The notes beneath the pieces are model-generated. The model did no database searches. It was given only the letters and a program-made list of their open reading frames with translations, and had not been told where the DNA came from. A stretch of DNA of 32,118 bases, from positions 1-32,118 of the forward strand of contig QHCF01000144.1 in assembly GCA_003244275.1 (NCBI GenBank), written 5' to 3'. Both the position numbers and the translations under genes were made by a program. Below, piece by piece: positions 2,721-19,004 of the stretch (position 1 is its first letter; each line of letters starts with the position of its first letter). This DNA comes from Acidimicrobiales bacterium. GTDB taxonomy: Bacteria > Actinomycetota > Acidimicrobiia > Acidimicrobiales > QHCF01.

Positions 2721-3650
2721 ATGCCGCCCCTGCGCTTCGCGGTCCAGTCGGGCAAGGCCGACAGCCCCGGGGCCTGGCGGGAACGAGCCCGCCGGGTGGA
2801 GGATCTCGGCTACTCGACCCTCTACCTGCCCGACCACCTGGGAGACCAGTGGGGGCCCCTGGTGGCCATGACGGTGGCGGCCGAGGCCACCCGGACCCTG
2901 CGGGTCGGTTCGTTGGTGTTCGACAACGACTACCGCCATCCGGTGGTGCTGGCAAAGGAGATCGCGACCTTGGACCTGTGCAGCGAGGGCCGGGTGGAAG
3001 CAGGGTTCGGTGCCGGCTGGAAGCGCAGCGACTACGACGAAGCGGGACTCGACTACGACGGGCCGGGGGAGCGGGTGGCGCGGTTGGCCGAGGCGCTGGC
3101 CATCATGAAGGCCCTCTGGTCGAAGGGCTCGGCCACCGTGGAGGGCTCTCACTATCGTGTGCGGGGAGCCCAGGGCCTTCCCAGGCCATTTTTGGCGTCT
3201 GGCCCAACCGTGGTGGTGGGAGGGGGAAGTCGCGGCGTCCTGTCCCTGGCTGCTGCTGAGGCCGATGTGGTGGGAGTCAACCCCAGTCTGGCGACCGGCA
3301 GGGTGGGCCCCGAGACGGCGGCGTCGGCTCTCCCCGAGCGCTACCGGGAGCGCCTGGGCTGGATCCGCCAGGCGGCCGGTGAACGCTTCTGCGACCTCGA
3401 GCTCCAGTGCCTCACCTTCGTCGCCCACGTCGGCTCCGGTGGGCCCGAGCGAGTCGAGTTCATGGCGCCGCTGTTCGGGCTGACCCCTGAGGCGGCAGCA
3501 GAGGCCCCCGTGGTCCTGGCCGGGACGGTCGAGCAGGTCTGTGACACCATTCTCGCCCGTCGGGAGGAGTACGGCCTGTCCTACTGGGTGGTCCACGACG
3601 CCGAGATGGAGGCGTTCGCCCCGGTGGTCGCCCGCCTGGTCGGACGGTGA
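2721..3650 (+). CDS. LLM-class F420-dependent oxidoreductase (MSMEG_2516-like)
   Basis: A 309-aa luciferase-like TIM-barrel oxidoreductase. The start (PPLRFAVQSGKAD), the YLPDHLGDQWGPLVAM region (33-48), VGSLVFDNDYRHPVVLAKE (62-80) and the glycine-rich GFGAGWKRSDYDEAG are typical of actinobacterial F420-dependent LLM proteins, in particular the small family named after MSMEG_2516. The substrate is unknown, and the use of F420 rather than FMN is inferred from family membership. It is transcribed divergently from the DAHP synthase gene, 106 bp apart. The 25-bp gap to nadD suggests they could share a transcript, though nadD has its own strong ribosome binding site. Confidence 0.85.
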   Translation: MPPLRFAVQSGKADSPGAWRERARRVEDLGYSTLYLPDHLGDQWGPLVAMTVAAEATRTLRVGSLVFDNDYRHPVVLAKEIATLDLCSEGRVEAGFGAGWKRSDYDEAGLDYDGPGERVARLAEALAIMKALWSKGSATVEGSHYRVRGAQGLPRPFLASGPTVVVGGGSRGVLSLAAAEADVVGVNPSLATGRVGPETAASALPERYRERLGWIRQAAGERFCDLELQCLTFVAHVGSGGPERVEFMAPLFGLTPEAAAEAPVVLAGTVEQVCDTILARREEYGLSYWVVHDAEMEAFAPVVARLVGR

Positions 3651-8314: not shown

Positions 8315-8632
8315 TCAACGGAGTCCGAGGATGGTCATGAGGCTCTCATCGATCCCCCAGATCTCCTCGGGGCTGGCGTGGCCCACGTGATCACCGAGGC
8401 GATTGACGTCGACCGCCCCCAGTTGCTCGATGAGGACGTAGGTGGTCTCACCCTCGATCACCATCTCCGGGCGAAAGGTCGCCGGCCGTGCCGCCCGAGA
8501 CGTCGGAGCGACCAGAATCACAGACCGTGGCAGGAAGGCATCCGCTTGGACGACGACGCCGAAACGTCGGCCTTGCTGCGGGTGGCCGGTCCGGCGCGGT
8601 GGTCGCAGCCGGAAGACGTCACCCCTCTGCAC
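8315..8632 (-). CDS. mazF: MazF/PemK-family toxin
   Basis: A 105-aa protein of the type II toxin-antitoxin MazF/PemK family, predicted sequence-specific endoribonuclease. It starts with the typical QRGDVFRLRPP strand, followed by GRRFGVVVQADAFLPRSVILVAPTSRAARPATFRPE (Arg24, Thr45 and Ser46 in the usual catalytic neighbourhood), the EQLGAVDVNRLG segment (68-79) and a C-terminal helix. The GTG start overlaps the antitoxin stop by 14 bp and has GGAGA upstream, inside the antitoxin gene. The toxin is therefore translated after the antitoxin. The frame is intact, so the module looks functional. Confidence 0.88.
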   Translation of the reverse strand: MQRGDVFRLRPPRRTGHPQQGRRFGVVVQADAFLPRSVILVAPTSRAARPATFRPEMVIEGETTYVLIEQLGAVDVNRLGDHVGHASPEEIWGIDESLMTILGLR

Positions 8633-8858
8633 GCAGAGTCTCCATCAGCGAGGCGACCTCCTGCATCTCCCGACGATCCGCCTCGTCAGCCTCGAGCGCC
8701 GCCACCTCGGCACGGAGTGCCTCATAGCGACGCAGAGCCAGGGCAGCATCGCGAATTGACTTGCGGATCGCCTCTGAGCGGGTCAGACCGGAAGCCTCCA
8801 GCGTGCGCAGTGCCCGCTGTGCGTCGTCATCCAGTCGAACCGACACCGCCCGGGTCAT
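8619..8858 (-). CDS. Ribbon-helix-helix antitoxin
   Basis: A 79-aa antitoxin of the ribbon-helix-helix (CopG/MazE-like) type. The N-terminal strand TRAVSVRLDDDAQRALRTLE followed by SGLTRSEAIRKSIRDAA is the standard dimeric DNA-binding fold. The C-terminal 40 residues are acidic and helical and should wrap and neutralise the toxin. ATG 8858 is chosen over TTG 8867 because it leaves the operator outside the gene. A perfect inverted repeat lies 4 bp upstream of the ATG, as expected for an autoregulated module. Confidence 0.85.
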   Translation of the reverse strand: MTRAVSVRLDDDAQRALRTLEASGLTRSEAIRKSIRDAALALRRYEALRAEVAALEADEADRREMQEVASLMETLRAEG

Positions 8859-8862
8859 GGTG

Positions 8863-8893
8863 GTCAATGTATCACATTAAGTGATACATTGAC
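8863..8893 (-). promoter_or_regulatory. Operator and promoter of the toxin-antitoxin pair
   Basis: A perfect inverted repeat with 13-bp arms GTCAATGTATCAC (8863-8875) and GTGATACATTGAC (8881-8893) around a 5-bp centre ATTAA. It is strikingly AT-rich for this genome. On the minus strand TACATT (8870-8865) would serve as a -10, and the ATG begins 7 nt later, giving a leaderless transcript covered by the repressor site. Binding by the antitoxin is inferred from position. Confidence 0.7.
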
Positions 8894-8995
8894 GGCATCG
8901 CCGACACGTGTGATGTGTGAGTTGCTGCGCGCAGCTGTACCGGTGAGTAGCTGACCGCAACGGTGCCCCGCTTTGAGGTGGCGGGCTGGCCGTCG

Positions 8996-9001
8996 TAGTG
9001 T
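8996..9001 (+). promoter_or_regulatory. Probable -10 of a leaderless ctaB promoter
   Basis: TAGTGT matches TANNNT and is followed by 6 nt and then the GTG at 9008, so transcription would begin at the start codon. No Shine-Dalgarno is present before this GTG. A perfect 12-bp palindrome, GCTGCGCGCAGC (8924-8935), lies further upstream and may be regulatory. Confidence 0.4.
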
Positions 9002-9007
9002 CGGCTC

Positions 9008-9901
9008 GTGCAACCTGTCGTATCGTTCTCCGGGCCGGACCGACTCCGGGGATACGTGGCCCTCACCAAGCCACGGATCATCGAGCTCCTGCTGGTCACG
9101 ACCGTGCCCACCATGGTGGTGGCCGCTCGGGGCCTGCCGTCGGGATGGTTGGTCCTGGCCACTCTCGTGGGGGGGACTCTGGCCGCCGGGGGGGCCAATG
9201 CCATCAACATGTTCGTCGACCGGGACATCGACCAGGTCATGCACCGGACCCGAAACCGCCCCCTCGTCACCGGCGTAGTAACGCCGGGCCGGGCCCTGGC
9301 CTTCGCGGTAGCCCTCGAGGTAGTGGCCTTCGTCGAGCTGTGGCTGCTGGTCAACCCGCTCAGCGCCGGCCTGGCGGTGGCCGCCACCTTGTTCTATGTC
9401 TTCGTCTACACCCTGTGGCTCAAACGAACCTCCACCCAGAACATCGTCATCGGTGGGGCGGCCGGGGCCGTGCCCGTCCTGATTGGCTGGGCAGCCGTGA
9501 CCGGCGGCCTGGGCTGGGCGCCCGTCGTGTTGTTCGCGGTGATATTCCTGTGGACGCCTCCCCACTTCTGGGCCCTGGCCGTTCGCTACCGGGACGACTA
9601 CTCAGCCGCTGGGGTCCCCATGCTGCCCTCAGTGGCGCCCTTCGAGCACACCTCCCGCCAGATCCTGATCTACACGGTTGGCCTGTGGGTCATCTCCTTG
9701 GTGTTCGCCCCGGTCGCTCACATGGGCCTCATCTACCTGGTGTCGGCCATCGTCTTGGGGGCGGTGTTCCTGGGCTTTGCCCTCCAGCTGCGCAAGGAGG
9801 CCACCAGCAAGGCCGCCATGCGGCTTTTCGGCTACTCGATCACCTATGTGACCCTGCTGTTCGGGGCCATGGCTGTCGACCAGCTGGTACATCTGCTCTG
9901 A
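9008..9901 (+). CDS. ctaB: Protoheme IX farnesyltransferase
   Basis: A membrane prenyltransferase (CyoE/CtaB/COX10 family) of 297 aa. It adds a farnesyl group to heme b to make heme o for terminal oxidases. The UbiA-type motifs are present: [20 protein letters not shown] (about 67-86), with the Asp-rich diphosphate-binding site, and [13 protein letters not shown] (about 197-209). There are about eight or nine hydrophobic segments. It begins with GTG, and the TAGTGT six nt upstream points to a leaderless message. It heads a compact run with a TlpA-like thioredoxin and serS, suggesting joint expression with cytochrome or oxidase assembly. Confidence 0.93.
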
Positions 9902-10471: not shown

Positions 10472-11740
10472 ATGATCGACCTCCGCCGCCTTCGCGACGA
10501 GCCGGCCTACCGGGTCGGTATCGAGCGCAAGCGCTGCACTCCTGACCTCATCGATGCCGTGCTGAGCGCCGACGACCATCGTCGGGTTCTCCTGGCCGAG
10601 GTCGAGGCGGCCAGGGCCGAGCAGAATGCCGCCTCCCGGGGGATCGCCCAGGCCGCCCCCGATCAGCGCCCAGCCCGCATCGCGGCGGCCACCGCCCTCA
10701 AGGCCACCCTGGCTCGCCTCCAGCCCACCCTGGCCGAGGCCGAGAGCCACCTCCGGGAGCTAGCCCTGCAGGTGCCCAACCCAGCCGCTCCCACGGTGCC
10801 CGACGGTGGCGAGGAGGACGCCGAGGTCCTACGGGAGATGGGCGAGCGCGGCCCGGTCCCGTTGCTCGACCATGCCTCCTTTGGTGAGCGCCATGGTGTG
10901 GTCGAGGTCGAGAAGGCCGCCCGTACCAGCGGAGCCCGTTTTGCCTATCTGATGGGACAGGCCGTCCTGGTGGAGCTGGCCCTGGTCCGCTGGGTGACCC
11001 AGTTGCTGGTGGAGGAGGGTTTTTGTCCGGTGGTGCCACCCGTGCTGGTGCGAGAGGAGGCCATGGAGGTGGCCGGCTTCTTCCCCACCGATCGCAACCA
11101 GGTCTACGAGGTGGACGGGTCCGAGCTGTTCCTGGTGGGTACCAGCGAGATCCCCTTGGCCTGCCTGCACCGGGAGGAGATCCTCGGCGCCGACCATCTG
11201 CCCCTTCGCTACGCCGGGCTGTCCACCTGCTTTCGCCGGGAGGCAGGGACCTACGGCCGGGACACGAGGGGGATGTTTCGAGTGCACCAGTTCGACAAGG
11301 TGGAGATGTTCTCCTACGCCGATCCCGATGCTTCGCTCGACGAGCACCAGCGCCTGCTGGCCATCCAGGAGCGCATCGTGGGTGCCCTGGGCCTTCCCTA
11401 CCGGGTGGTCAACGTGGCCGCCGGCGACCTCGGGCCAGCGGCCGCCAGCAAGTTCGACATCGAGGTGTGGCTGCCCTCGGAGGGCCGCTACCGGGAGTTG
11501 ACCTCGTGCTCTAACTATGGCGACTACTCGGCCCGCCGGCTGGGCACCCGGGTCCGGGCCGACGCGGGGGCACCCAACCGCCTGGTCCACACCCTCAACG
11601 GGACGGCCTGCGCGGTGGGCCGGACACTGCTGTTCCTGTTCGAGAACCACCAGACCGCCGAGGGCGCCTTGCGGGTCCCCGAGCCCCTGGTACCCCTGTG
11701 CGGGTTCGAAGAGCTCCCGTCGGGGCCGCGACCGGTGTAA
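10472..11740 (+). CDS. serS: Seryl-tRNA synthetase
   Basis: A class II aminoacyl-tRNA synthetase of 422 aa, normal length. It charges tRNA-Ser with serine. The N-terminal tRNA-binding domain (about 1-110) is the expected long helical hairpin, though here it is Ala-rich and less conserved. The catalytic domain shows FLVGTSEIPL (TSE serine site), motif 2 in FRREAG through RGMFRVHQFDKVEMF, ELTSCSNYGDYSARR and motif 3 NGTACAVGRTLLFLFEN. It starts 7 bp after the TlpA-like gene and probably shares its transcript. A hairpin follows its stop immediately. Confidence 0.96.
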   Translation: MIDLRRLRDEPAYRVGIERKRCTPDLIDAVLSADDHRRVLLAEVEAARAEQNAASRGIAQAAPDQRPARIAAATALKATLARLQPTLAEAESHLRELALQVPNPAAPTVPDGGEEDAEVLREMGERGPVPLLDHASFGERHGVVEVEKAARTSGARFAYLMGQAVLVELALVRWVTQLLVEEGFCPVVPPVLVREEAMEVAGFFPTDRNQVYEVDGSELFLVGTSEIPLACLHREEILGADHLPLRYAGLSTCFRREAGTYGRDTRGMFRVHQFDKVEMFSYADPDASLDEHQRLLAIQERIVGALGLPYRVVNVAAGDLGPAAASKFDIEVWLPSEGRYRELTSCSNYGDYSARRLGTRVRADAGAPNRLVHTLNGTACAVGRTLLFLFENHQTAEGALRVPEPLVPLCGFEELPSGPRPV

Positions 11741-13654: not shown

Positions 13655-14968
13655 TCATCCAGTGCGGCCCGAGCGGCCTGGGATTTGCAGCCTGAAGGTA
13701 GACCCCTCTCCCTCCCGCGATTCCACCGTCACCCTTCCCTGATGATTGCTGGCCACGTGGCGAACGATAGCCAAGCCCAGCCCGGTGCCGCCCGTGTAGC
13801 GACTGCGACCCTGGTCGACCCGGTAGAACCTCTCGAAGATGCGTTCCAGGTCCCGGGCCGGGATCCCGACCCCGTGGTCGGCCACCACCAGCTCAACCAT
13901 GTCACCAGCCGCGGCAGAGCGGTCCTCCGGGGAGCACGGGACCACTCTCGCCGATATCTCGACCGACGAGTGGCGAGGGGAGTACTTGATGGCATTCTCG
14001 ACCAGGTTGTAAAGGGCCGACACCAGCTGGCGGCGGTCCCCCACGACGTAGAGGCCCTCAGGTGGCTCAGCGAGAGCCAGGGAGACACCGGCGGCCTCGG
14101 CCCCCGCCCGAGCCCGTTCCACGGCGTCGGCCATGACCAGGGCCACTGGGACAGGCTCGCGCGGCGGTGACTCCTCGGCCTCGATGCGCGACAGGTCCAG
14201 CAGGTCATCGATGATCCGGCTCACCCGAAAGGCCTCGTCCTCGATGCGCCTGGCCAGGCGCCGGATGACCATCGGCTCGCCCTCGGCCAGAATCGTCTCA
14301 GCCAGCAGGCCGAGCGCACCCACCGGCGTCTTGAGCTCATGACTGACGTTGGCCACGAAGTCGCGCCGCACTGCGTCCAGTCGGCGGCGCTCTGAGACGT
14401 CGTCGAGCACAGCCACCACGCCGAGCGGCCTGTACTCGTCGCCAATGGCATGCGTCCGCACGGTGAGGGTCTGGCGAGGTGGGCCATAGAGGTCTAGGGT
14501 GCGCTCGGCCGGCGTTCCTGCCGCGCTGGCGGCCAGGAGCTCCTCGACCGCCTGGGCAGCGATGACGTCGGTGTGCCGGCCGCCCATCAGGGCGGCCGCT
14601 CTGGCATTGCGGAAGGTGACGCGGCCTGAGTCGTCGCAGATGACCACACCCTGGGGCATGGCATCGAGGGCCTGGGCCAGGCGGGTCGCCTCAGCCCGGA
14701 CATTGCTCCTGGTCTCAGCGGCTCGCTCAGCGGCCCGATCGAGGAGGGAGAGGGTGGGTTCCAGGCGCATCCGGCGGCCAATCTCGGAGCTGTCGCTCAT
14801 CCGGTCAGCCAGGACCGCAAGTCGTTTGGCCAGTCCCGCCCGGGCCAAGTGCCGGCCGCTGATCCAGGCTCCCACGACGGCCAGTACAGCCAGGGCGATG
14901 GCGACACCGACCAGGGTGGCAGAGAGGGCCAGAGTGGCGGCTACGGCCGGGGTGATTGAGAAGGTCAC
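13655..14968 (-). CDS. senX3: Phosphate sensor histidine kinase, SenX3/PhoR-like
   Basis: A 437-aa kinase. One long or two short N-terminal membrane helices (about 8-37), a linker coil, a PAS domain (about 93-190, AMPQGVVICDDSGRVTFRN), HisKA with His210 in FVANVSHELKTPVGAL, then NLVENA (321-326), DHGVGIP (364-370) and GGTGLGLAI (393-401). The lack of a sizeable external domain and the PAS domain match SenX3/PhoR kinases, which read phosphate state through PstSCAB-PhoU rather than a ligand outside. Start GTG 14968 is chosen because it places the membrane helix at the N-terminus. The frame remains open to 15091, but that part would run through the inverted repeat at 15047-15099. Confidence 0.9.
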   Translation of the reverse strand: MTFSITPAVAATLALSATLVGVAIALAVLAVVGAWISGRHLARAGLAKRLAVLADRMSDSSEIGRRMRLEPTLSLLDRAAERAAETRSNVRAEATRLAQALDAMPQGVVICDDSGRVTFRNARAAALMGGRHTDVIAAQAVEELLAASAAGTPAERTLDLYGPPRQTLTVRTHAIGDEYRPLGVVAVLDDVSERRRLDAVRRDFVANVSHELKTPVGALGLLAETILAEGEPMVIRRLARRIEDEAFRVSRIIDDLLDLSRIEAEESPPREPVPVALVMADAVERARAGAEAAGVSLALAEPPEGLYVVGDRRQLVSALYNLVENAIKYSPRHSSVEISARVVPCSPEDRSAAAGDMVELVVADHGVGIPARDLERIFERFYRVDQGRSRYTGGTGLGLAIVRHVASNHQGRVTVESREGEGSTFRLQIPGRSGRTG

Positions 14969-15046
14969 CTCGTCGCCAGGGCAGCCGTCAAGCTGTCGGC
15001 CAGCCCGGCGCGGTCGCTGGACGGGGCGGCCGGCGGGGCGGCCGGT

Positions 15047-15099
15047 GGGCACTTGTGCGCGTTTGTGTCGTATATGAGAGCTGACGCGCACAAGTGCCC
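15047..15099 (-). repeat. Perfect 16-bp inverted repeat between pstB and the kinase gene
   Basis: Arms GGGCACTTGTGCGCGT (15047-15062) and ACGCGCACAAGTGCCC (15084-15099) match with no mismatch around a 21-nt AT-richer loop. It lies 9 bases beyond the pstB stop and about 80 bases before the kinase start. It may be a partial terminator or RNA-processing hairpin lowering expression of the regulatory genes relative to the transporter. The loop contains TATACG on the minus strand, which could be a -10, making an operator-promoter another option. Confidence 0.65.
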
Positions 15100-15927: not shown

Positions 15928-17856
15928 TCACGCCAGTCGATTGCGCCGGGTGATTACCCGGGCCAGGACAGTAAGGGCGACCACGATCAGGATCAGGACG
16001 AGTGCAGCCGCCCAGGCCCGGTTGACGGCCACCGCGAAAGCCGACGTCGCCTGGGAGAACACGAACAACGGCAGGCTGGATTGCGGACCGTGGAAGGGGT
16101 TGATCTTGATGGAGTCGAAACCGAAGGCGGTCAGCAGCAGCGGCGCCGCCTCCCCCGTCACCCGGGCTACCGCCAGTACCACGCCGGTGGTGATGCCGGC
16201 GGCTGCAGTGGGCAGCACCACAGAGCACACGGTACGCCACCGGGAGACCCCGAGGGCGTAGCTCGCCTCACGGAGGTCCGATGGGACCAGTTTGATCATC
16301 TCCTCGGACGAGCGGATGACTATGGGGAGCATCAGCACGGCCAGGGCCAGGGACGCGGCCAGTCCCGAGAAGCCCAGGCCAAGGCCGAGCACCCAGAAGG
16401 CGAAGATGAACAGCCCGGCCACGATGGACGGGATGCCCGTCATCACGTCAACGACGAAGCGGACCCAGTCGGCCAGGCGGCGATCGCTCTGCTCGACCAG
16501 GAAGACGGCTACCAACAGGCCCAGCGGTATGGACACCAGGGCGGCCATGCCGACCTGCTCGACCGTGCCCACGATGGCGTGATATGCCCCACCCGCCGGG
16601 TCGAGCGGCCCAACGCCCCGCATGGAATGAGTCAGAAAGGAGCCGGACAGATCCCTCGCCCCAGCGTGGGCCGTATAGGCCAGGACGGCCACCAGAGGCA
16701 CGAGGGCCACCGCCACCGCCACGGCCATGAGTCCTTTCATGGACCAGTCGACCAAACCACGATGTCGATGGCCCGGGTGCCGGCGGCCCGCGCCCCGCAG
16801 GCGGCGGAGACGGCGGAGCCGGTCGGGGGGCGCCGGGCGGGTCCGCACCCCTTCACCGCCCCTGCGGACCACCAGCCGGGCGGCCAGGTTGACGGCCAGT
16901 GAGATCACGAACAGGACGAGCCCGGAGGCGATCAGCGCGGCCCGTCCGTTGGCCCCGGCCTCGCCGAACTTGGTGGCGATGTTGGCCGCGATGGTGTTGC
17001 CGCCCGGTTGGAAGATTCGGAAGGTGATCTTGAACGAGGCCGACAACACCAGGGCGACGGCGATGGTCTCGCCTATGGCGCGACCCAGGCCGAGCATGAT
17101 GGCGCCGATCAGGCCGCTGCGACTCGGGGGCAGGACGGCCATGCGGATGGTCTCCCAACGGGTGGCACCCAGCGCCAGAGCCGCTTCTCGGGCCGATCCA
17201 GGAACCTGACGAAGCACCTCTCGGGAGATGGCGGCGATGATGGGCAGGATCATTATGGCCAGCACCACCGAGGCGGCGAAGACTGACCGCCCATAGGTCT
17301 GGTTGGGGCTGTGGAGGAAGGGGATGAAGCCGAGGAAGCCGTCCACTCCCCGCTCGAAGGGGACCAGCAGGGGAACGAGGAAGGCCACCCCCCACAGGCC
17401 GTAGACCACGCTGGGTACCGCGGCCAGCAGGTCGACCAGCCATCCCAGGGTTCTGCTGACCTTCGGGCGGGCTACCTCGGTCAGGTAGAGAGCGGTCCCC
17501 AGCGCTACCGGGGTGGCAATGAGCAGGGCGATGGCGCTGGACAAGACGGTGCCCCAGGCCAGTGCGGCAATGCCGAAATGTGGGGGTGTCGAGTCAGGCA
17601 GCCATTGCCGCATTGTGAAGAAGCCCGGGCCGGCCTGGCGAAAGGCAGGGACGGCCTGAACCACCAGGAAGGCCACGATGGCGCCCAGGAGCAGCAATAC
17701 CAACAGGCCGGCACCCCGGGTGACCATGGCGAATATGGCATCACCTCGTGCTCGTCGGTGGCCTGGTGCGGGCGGGTCGGTGCCCGCCTGGCTGATCTCG
17801 CCGGGCGATATGACAGGCGGCGGTGGCTGGACCCGACCCGGCGCCGAGCCGGGCAT
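15928..17856 (-). CDS. pstCA: Fused PstC-PstA phosphate permease
   Basis: One uninterrupted 642-aa frame encodes both permease subunits. Residues 1-332 are PstC: a Pro-rich cytosolic start, TM at about 46-70, and the coupling EAA motif [20 protein letters not shown] (224-243). Residues 333-370 are an Arg/His-rich linker. Residues 373-642 are PstA, with EAA motif [20 protein letters not shown] (530-549). The start ATG overlaps the pstS stop (TGATG). An internal ATG at 16740, where separate PstA would begin, has no ribosome binding site, which supports one polypeptide. Separate proteins made by internal initiation remain possible. The open frame continues upstream to 18807, but that part is a shadow of pstS. 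Confidence 0.88.
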
Positions 17857-19004
17857 CAGGGCACCACCCGGGCCAGGGCCGCCCGGTCGGCGGCGAGCAG
17901 GCTGGGCGGCAGGGGAGCGTAGAAGAGGGGGCGGGTGGCCACCTGGCCTGGCCCCAGGGCGTAGGTCAGGAACGATGAGAGCAGGGCGGCCTGCCGGGCA
18001 TCTGGCTGGCGGGTGTACACCATGACCCAGGTGAGGGTGGATATGGGGTAGGCGGCGGGACCGCCGGGCAGGGGGCTGAGCTGGGTGGTGCCGGCCCCTG
18101 AGGTCTGGCCGGCCCCGGTCCCGACCTGGCTGTCGCCGTCCTTTCCTCCGCTGGCGGTGGCCGACTGCAGGGCGGCCGAGACGGCGTTGGCGCTCGGTCC
18201 CACGAAGTGCCCGGCCGGGTTCTCGATCTGGGTGATCCCCAGACCGGTGGCCTTGGCGTAGGCGACCTCGGCGTAGCCGATAGCTCCTTCGGACTGCTCT
18301 ACGGCCGCGGTGACCTGGTCCGACCCCTTGGCCCCCTGGCCGGTCGGCCAGGCCACCTCCTTCCCCGATCCGGCCTTCCACAGCGAAGGGGCGGCGGCGG
18401 CCAGATAGCGGGTGAAGGCGGCTGTGGTCCCCGAGCCGTCCGAGCGGTGGACCACCTGGATACCCTCGGCGGGCAGCGCCGTACCTGGATTGTCGGCCTG
18501 AACGGCCGGCTCGCTCCACTTGGTGATGGTGCCGGCGAAGATGCCGGCGAGGGTACGCGGACGCAGACGTAAATGGTGCACGCCTTCTAGGTGATATTCC
18601 ACTGCGACCCCGCCGGCTGCCCACGGGATCTCCAGCACCGGGCCCCCGTGGGCCTGAGCGGACCGCAGCTCGGTCGGTGTCATCACCACGTCGGAGGCGG
18701 CAAAGCCCACCGTCTGGGCAGTGAGCTGTTGGATGCCTGCCCCTGACCCCGCCCCCTGGTAGTTGATGGTGGCCCTCGGACAGGCTCGCTGGTAGCCGCT
18801 GATCCATTCCTGGAGGATGGTCTGGACAAACGTCGAGCCGGCACCCGAGATGGTCCCGATCCCACAGGTGCTGCCCGGGCGCAGGTGAGAGGGGACGATC
18901 AGGGCCAAGCCACTGGTGTTGTCATCGGTGCCGAACCTGGCGCCCAGCGCCACCAGGGCCACCGCCACCAGGACACCAGCGAGGCGACCAGGCCAGCGAG
19001 GCAC
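17856..19004 (-). CDS. pstS: Phosphate-binding protein PstS
   Basis: The extracytoplasmic phosphate receptor of the Pst importer, about 382 aa. The N-terminus (PRWPGRLAGVLVAVALVALGA) is a signal peptide or anchor without a lipobox. Phosphate-site features are visible: ISGAGSTFVQTILQEW, NYQGAGSGAGIQQL, FAASDVVMT, and HRSDGSGTTAAFTRYL. A roughly 35-residue Gly/Ser-rich insert (ATASGGKDGDSQVGTGAGQT region) is unusual. The frame is open from 19097, but a PHO-box-like repeat and a possible -10 lie inside that extension. I therefore favour GTG 19004, 7 nt after TAGGGT; GTG 19013 is the other option. Confidence 0.9.
   Translation of the reverse strand: MPRWPGRLAGVLVAVALVALGARFGTDDNTSGLALIVPSHLRPGSTCGIGTISGAGSTFVQTILQEWISGYQRACPRATINYQGAGSGAGIQQLTAQTVGFAASDVVMTPTELRSAQAHGGPVLEIPWAAGGVAVEYHLEGVHHLRLRPRTLAGIFAGTITKWSEPAVQADNPGTALPAEGIQVVHRSDGSGTTAAFTRYLAAAAPSLWKAGSGKEVAWPTGQGAKGSDQVTAAVEQSEGAIGYAEVAYAKATGLGITQIENPAGHFVGPSANAVSAALQSATASGGKDGDSQVGTGAGQTSGAGTTQLSPLPGGPAAYPISTLTWVMVYTRQPDARQAALLSSFLTYALGPGQVATRPLFYAPLPPSLLAADRAALARVVP

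Follow-up and report, generated by a model that had tools for sequence, protein, structure and literature searches.

The window, i.e., the whole stretch of 32,118 nucleotides analyzed here, carries two small overlapping genes on its minus strand that together resemble a toxin-antitoxin pair. They are preceded by an inverted repeat, beyond which the heme o synthase gene (ctaB) starts at 9008. The features of this locus are as follows:

8315-8632, minus strand: toxin gene, 105 aa, PemK/MazF family (PF02452), GTG start, 14-bp overlap with the antitoxin gene.
8619-8858, minus strand: antitoxin gene, 79 aa, probable RHH type, ATG at 8858 and stop codon at 8621-8619.
8863-8893, no strand: perfect 13-5-13 inverted repeat and proposed operator, with the core GTATCAC-N5-GTGATAC plus flanks, conserved before relatives of the antitoxin gene.
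8866-8874, minus strand: extended -10 element TGATACATT (TGN-TANNNT), reading leftward for the toxin-antitoxin operon, inside the repeat and 7 nt before the ATG.
8882-8890, plus strand: mirror-image TGATACATT, a speculative second -10 element towards ctaB (mirrored A in only 17/56 related loci).
8970-9001, plus strand: probable ctaB promoter, with GCTTTG from 8970 and TAGTGT at 8996-9001, 6 nt before GTG 9008 and outside the operator.

A Pfam search of ten other frames in the window left six without a match and identified the following:

2721-3650: luciferase-like monooxygenase.
10472-11740: seryl-tRNA synthetase.
13655-15091: PAS histidine kinase.
15928-18807: ABC-transport permease.

The toxin matches PF02452 well above its cut-off (54.6 bits, E 1.5e-14, vs 23.1), and its PDB matches include the mRNA interferases EndoA/MazF (E 0.0008-0.0023); its NCBIfam matches stay below cut-off. 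Immediately upstream, the small gene for the antitoxin overlaps that of the toxin by 14 bp, which gives the layout of a type II system. A match to the window's toxin also follows 71 of the 74 antitoxins of our first set (window included), usually at the same offset. RHH_1 matches the window's antitoxin weakly, at 16.1 bits vs a Pfam cut-off of 20.5, but is found at E <= 0.01 in 15 of 28 aligned family members (best 3.2e-07), and DUF6290 is found in 18 of the 28. Arg8, Gly24, Ser28 and Arg32 are among the residues that are invariant in this alignment. A single-sequence PDB search placed histidine ammonia-lyases on top (E 0.01), probably by chance, whereas a profile search returned RelB as best match together with CopG-type regulators and Rv0298 (E 0.0074-0.044). 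The AlphaFold2 monomer (mean pLDDT 88, pTM 0.53) has helices at residues 11-22, 27-57 and 59-78 and a nonhelical N-terminus in which no strand was called. Foldseek found no match to this model at E <= 0.001; the top hit was the RHH domain of ParD (E 1.1), followed at E values also above 0.001 by CopG, AtaR and DinJ, as well as MatP and TCP-type transcription factors. The 79-aa product is thus a probable RHH antitoxin, its own Pfam match being below cut-off, and the gene pair is probably a type II toxin-antitoxin operon with a PemK/MazF toxin.

An upstream TTG start, which would lengthen the antitoxin to 82 aa, was rejected because it overlaps the -10 element and because the codon aligned with the present start is ATG or GTG in most relatives. 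The three of 74 antitoxins lacking a match to the window's toxin behind them are L064, L080 and L081. The latter two, with a TTTVR strand, nonetheless carry GTAGCAC...GTGCTAC as a repeat ahead of the start, so this layout may extend beyond MazF partners. Altered-looking frames at L006, L046, L034 and L009 (antitoxins of 92 or 70 aa, or partial toxin matches in another frame) are perhaps decaying copies or assembly errors. In 3 of 36 scanned loci, 36 bp separate the start of the antitoxin gene from a preceding tRNA gene (Val, Val and Ala; L002 1389-1464, L005 1389-1464 and L011 1391-1464, respectively), which would fit insertion beside tRNA genes.

The sequence-only reading of this DNA had described an error-free 13-bp inverted repeat ending 4 bp from the antitoxin ATG and enclosing the hexamer TACATT, all of which we recovered. 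The 13-nt arms, 8863-8875 and 8881-8893, are 100% complementary around 5 nt, and positions 8859-8862 separate them from the ATG (8858-8856, minus strand). TACATT occupies 8871 to 8866 on the minus strand and, with the preceding TGA, forms TGATACATT from 8874 to 8866. This is the longest perfect inverted repeat of the window for loops of up to 10, and it is 68% AT within a window that is 69% GC. None of 100 shuffles of the whole window that preserved dinucleotides reached a perfect arm of 13 nt; their maximum was 12 nt (5/100), and a chance repeat was accordingly rejected. The core TGTATCAC-N5-GTGATACA, allowing up to three mismatches, occurs once in the window and in none of 100 shuffles. Across the 2.27-Mb genome (88% completeness, 6.5% contamination), the same search returned this one site with 0 mismatches and no other within three. 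The backward control pattern gave two sites, so a 3-mismatch site would be unremarkable at the genome scale; the actual site has none.

The repeat is not peculiar to the window. Relatives of the antitoxin occur in at least 11 loci on named contigs, with titles including Acidimicrobiales, Acidimicrobiaceae, Streptosporangiaceae and Frankiales, and in 64 of 397 sampled genomes of the window's order and 37 of 396 of its phylum, its own genome being counted in both samples. Upstream regions carry the core TGTATCAC-N5-GTGATACA at 12 or more of its 16 bases in 60 of 74 cases (window included), vs 0/74 in coding sequence, 0/73 further upstream and 3/1480 in shuffles. The phylum sample, which had no part in the choice of the core, gave at least 12/16 in 21 of 33 regions and at least 10 in 27 of 33, vs 9/16 for the best of 33 controls. 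Reduced to its fixed bases, GTNNNAC-N5-GTNNNAC, the site stands perfect before 60 of 106 related antitoxins and with at least seven of eight fixed bases before 88 (window included), compared to 0/106 coding-sequence controls at the latter level. This form was picked after viewing the data, but the controls and the spacer test were scored identically. Looking for this site in front of related antitoxins, as had been suggested from the window alone, thus gave a strongly positive result. Spacing is kept as well, i.e., a spacer of 5 gives 61/107 perfect pairs and any other from 0 to 11 at most 2/107. At the looser 7/8 level, spacers of 7, 8 and 1 give 27, 15 and 10 of 107, respectively. The pair ends 9 nt from the start codon in 46 of 89 sites and 10 nt in 20. 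No clear spacer-5 GTNNNAC pair was found in 18 of the 106, including the Ser6 members L009, L034, L057 and L128.

These counts rest on a first set of 81 rows (window included), reduced to 74 by dropping L012, L073, L075, L078 and L082, whose matches fell short of the N-terminus, and L014 and L016, copies of L002 and L009. The phylum set comprised 41 loci, 5 of which were already in the first set; 3 of the other 36 lacked the N-terminus, leaving 33. L118, a copy of L010, was removed from the joint set of 107 to give 106, although the spacer counts use 107. One of 71 matches (G356:C148) was left out of the order sample and one of 42 (G747) out of the phylum sample. A free-form palindrome search of the upstream regions was noisy, with all 8/8 positions paired in only 8 of 74, because most relatives have imperfect arms; scoring by consensus and by half-site took its place.

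The start-proximal half of the repeat usually doubles as an extended -10 element (TGATACANT) 6-7 nt before the start codon. Of the 56 Ser6 antitoxins whose site scores well (window included), 45 have TANNNT 5-9 nt before the start, and TGN precedes it in 40 of these. The spacing is 6 nt in 30 of the 45, 7 nt in 13, including the window, and 5 and 9 nt in one each. Shine-Dalgarno-like words were found in none of the 56 loci when 17 bases were searched per region. The two halves are not kept alike. The final T of the -10 element, which falls outside the half-site, is retained in 50 of the 56, whereas its mirrored A is present in 17 (window included). Likewise, base 5 of the right half-site, the first T of the -10 element, is T in 83 of 88 sites and its mirrored counterpart A in 61. 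This asymmetry between a T that is kept and a mirror that is lost suggests that the right half has promoter duty besides its operator role. TANNNT and the stronger TGN-TANNNT are -10 patterns of Mycobacterium tuberculosis, in which, according to PMC3898074, leaderless transcription applies to 32 of the 37 toxin-antitoxin pairs that have a primary start. The -10 element 6-7 nt before the start codon and the lack of a Shine-Dalgarno sequence give the same leaderless anatomy here, and transcription of the toxin-antitoxin pair probably begins at the ATG or right beside it. A sigma-70 consensus scan called no promoter at the locus, which remains compatible with a promoter without a -35 element.

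TANNNT is missing at the expected place in 11 of the 56 loci. Five of them (L019, L026, L029, L030 and L033) have CATACT instead, with TTGNNN 17 bp upstream, and L020, below the score limit, has the same arrangement. Among the other loci, one (L044) reaches 4/6 matches to TTGACA. Weaker or displaced -10 elements are seen in L006, L008, L039, L042, L046 and L048.

We therefore regard it as very likely that the repeat serves as operator for a leaderless type II operon that represses itself and encodes an RHH antitoxin and a PemK/MazF toxin. The earlier proposal of a repressor site over a leaderless toxin-antitoxin promoter finds support in the comparative evidence. In the mechanism that we propose, antitoxin dimers, probably one per GTNNNAC half-site, would occupy the repeat, and bound toxin would probably help them to repress as a corepressor. 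With the repeat occupied, RNA polymerase would lose access to the extended -10 element of the one promoter that is obvious for this operon, and transcription would rise once antitoxin is lost. Antitoxin binding, dimer stoichiometry, repression, the toxin's part and the start site are all features that we infer. Such an operon is ordinary in kind, antitoxin self-repression being a well-known design.

The neighboring gene at 9008 matches heme o synthase with 406 bits vs a cut-off of 246. From the repeat, it is about 114 bp to its GTG, about 103 bp to the probable -10 element TAGTGT and 77 bp to the -35-like GCTTTG (the promoter-like site as a whole spans 77-108 bp from the repeat), in agreement with the distance of about 100 bp to the ctaB promoter given in the sequence-only reading. 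The possible effect on ctaB raised there is, in contrast, unsupported. TANNNT occurs 5-9 nt before a possible start at 25 of 29 other ctaB loci (26/30 with the window), a lenient count in which several starts were allowed, and ctaB seems to have a recurring leaderless-type promoter of its own. In L083-L112, a CTTTG-like word often lies further upstream of TANNNT. Neither the antitoxin nor the toxin was found beside ctaB at the 29 other loci, which mostly provided about 1.5 kb of upstream DNA (almost none for L093 and under 0.9 kb for L086 and L100); the best other matches had E values of 0.14 and 0.055. By eye, the nearest other case among the matches listed is a partial antitoxin match about 4 kb from ctaB in G197. 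Direct control of ctaB by the antitoxin is therefore unlikely, given the promoter-like site of the gene itself and the absence of the pair at the other loci, and ctaB was rejected as a direct target.

An indirect route would add to the operator function rather than replace it. The repeat could act as a two-way promoter and operator, its mirror-image TGATACATT also firing rightwards into ctaB so that the antitoxin tunes this gene. In the window, the symmetry extends to the last T of the -10 element, and a second extended -10 element faces ctaB at 8882-8890. Since the mirrored element is complete here, a mirror promoter in this repeat, and through it an indirect effect on ctaB, is possible. This addition is nonetheless improbable, as the mirrored base is A in so few of the 56 relatives, ctaB has a promoter-like site near its start as most other ctaB loci do, and the pair was not encountered next to ctaB elsewhere.

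Two further readings would take the repeat away from the antitoxin. Palindromic operators are common to many repressors, and a host factor might be the protein that binds. We think this very improbable because many genomes of the order and phylum have the site ahead of their antitoxin gene, its right central bases vary with antitoxin residue 6, and the incomplete genome to which the window belongs yielded a single site. A perfect 13-bp stem with a 5-nt loop might also suggest that the repeat acts as RNA, in the form of a hairpin or a terminator stem in a transcript. Under the leaderless model, the repeat lies upstream of the transcript, and the terminator scan called nothing at this position. 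Only 25 of 89 sites have central triplets that are reverse complements of each other, which indicates that conservation applies to the bases and spacing of the half-sites and not to pairing. The hairpin or terminator was accordingly rejected, and we give it next to no credence. The autorepression operator remains the reading that we favor.

Within this operator family, the central bases of the half-sites tend to vary together with residues 4 and 6 of the antitoxin, with exceptions. Going by the RHH fold in general, residues 4, 6 and 8 of the strand would face the DNA. Of 69 Ser6 antitoxins, 62 have A in the middle of the right triplet, vs 2 of 19 others, although Fisher tests on such counts overstate independence because the antitoxins share descent. 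The middle base of the left triplet, T in 48/69 Ser6 antitoxins and 10/19 others, separates the classes poorly. The left triplet is CTT in 5 of 7 Thr6 and 3 of 4 Asn6 antitoxins, AGC (there followed by AT, not AC) in 3 of 3 His6 antitoxins, and AGC, GGC and GCC, once each, in Arg6 antitoxins. Ser6 antitoxins with Leu4 (n = 7) have TGTCNGAC on the left in six and GTGATAC on the right in six, L143 being the exception in both. Contrary to a simple code, the Thr6 antitoxins L080 and L081 have GTAGCAC/GTGCTAC with a spacer of 4. Several residue classes look like single clades, so that the covariation is suggestive and does not represent independent events.

A family-wide operator code could nevertheless be proposed, in which GTNNNAC-N5-GTNNNAC is a fixed frame, perhaps read by Arg8, and the central triplet is set largely by residues 4 and 6. 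In such a code, Ser6 would pair with ATC/GAT, Thr6 or Asn6 often with CTT, His6 with AGC/GCT or ACT, and Arg6 with GGC/GCC or AGC/GCT, and the start-proximal half would additionally be confined to NNTAC because it also serves as the -10 element. We advance this code as a whole tentatively and would sooner expect it to fail than to hold, since the triplets of L080 and L081 and the poor separation by the left triplet lower its odds. If true, it would make operators predictable from antitoxin sequences, and the reverse. A limited, mainly open-access literature search found no description of this operator family or of such a code. The 106 natural antitoxin-operator pairs examined here, in which operator and -10 element share bases and the half-site sequence tends to follow residues on the antitoxin strand that putatively faces DNA, provide a set for testing how coexisting toxin-antitoxin systems keep their regulation apart.

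MazEF6 of M. tuberculosis closely resembles the system proposed here. It pairs an RHH antitoxin (MazE6), the probable type here as well, with a MazF toxin. As described in PMC9477884, MazE6 binds an 18-bp site containing the -10 element TATACT, directly upstream of the start site as proposed for the window, and mycobacterial toxin-antitoxin operators are usually centered on the -10 element. The same source sets the MazE6 operator apart from that of Escherichia coli mazEF, which is palindromic, whereas the window has a perfect inverted repeat. Rv0298, of the M. tuberculosis pair Rv0298/Rv0299, is among the weak PDB matches of the antitoxin, at nonsignificant E values of 0.35 (single sequence) and 0.034 (profile).

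Kis is an AbrB-type antitoxin, unlike the probable RHH type at this locus. In the Kis/Kid system, a perfect palindrome overlaps the -10 element, as here, with the toxin acting as corepressor, but there is another palindrome, an imperfect one, upstream of the -35 element (PMC4803016). The Omega repressor of omega-epsilon-zeta is, according to the same source, an RHH protein that recognizes 5'-NATCACN-3' heptads, which the commonest Ser6 half-site of our family, GTATCAC/GTGATAC, resembles. Omega, however, is a third component that acts on arrays of heptads, whereas the putative operator of the toxin-antitoxin operon described here consists of one inverted pair with 5 bp between its halves.
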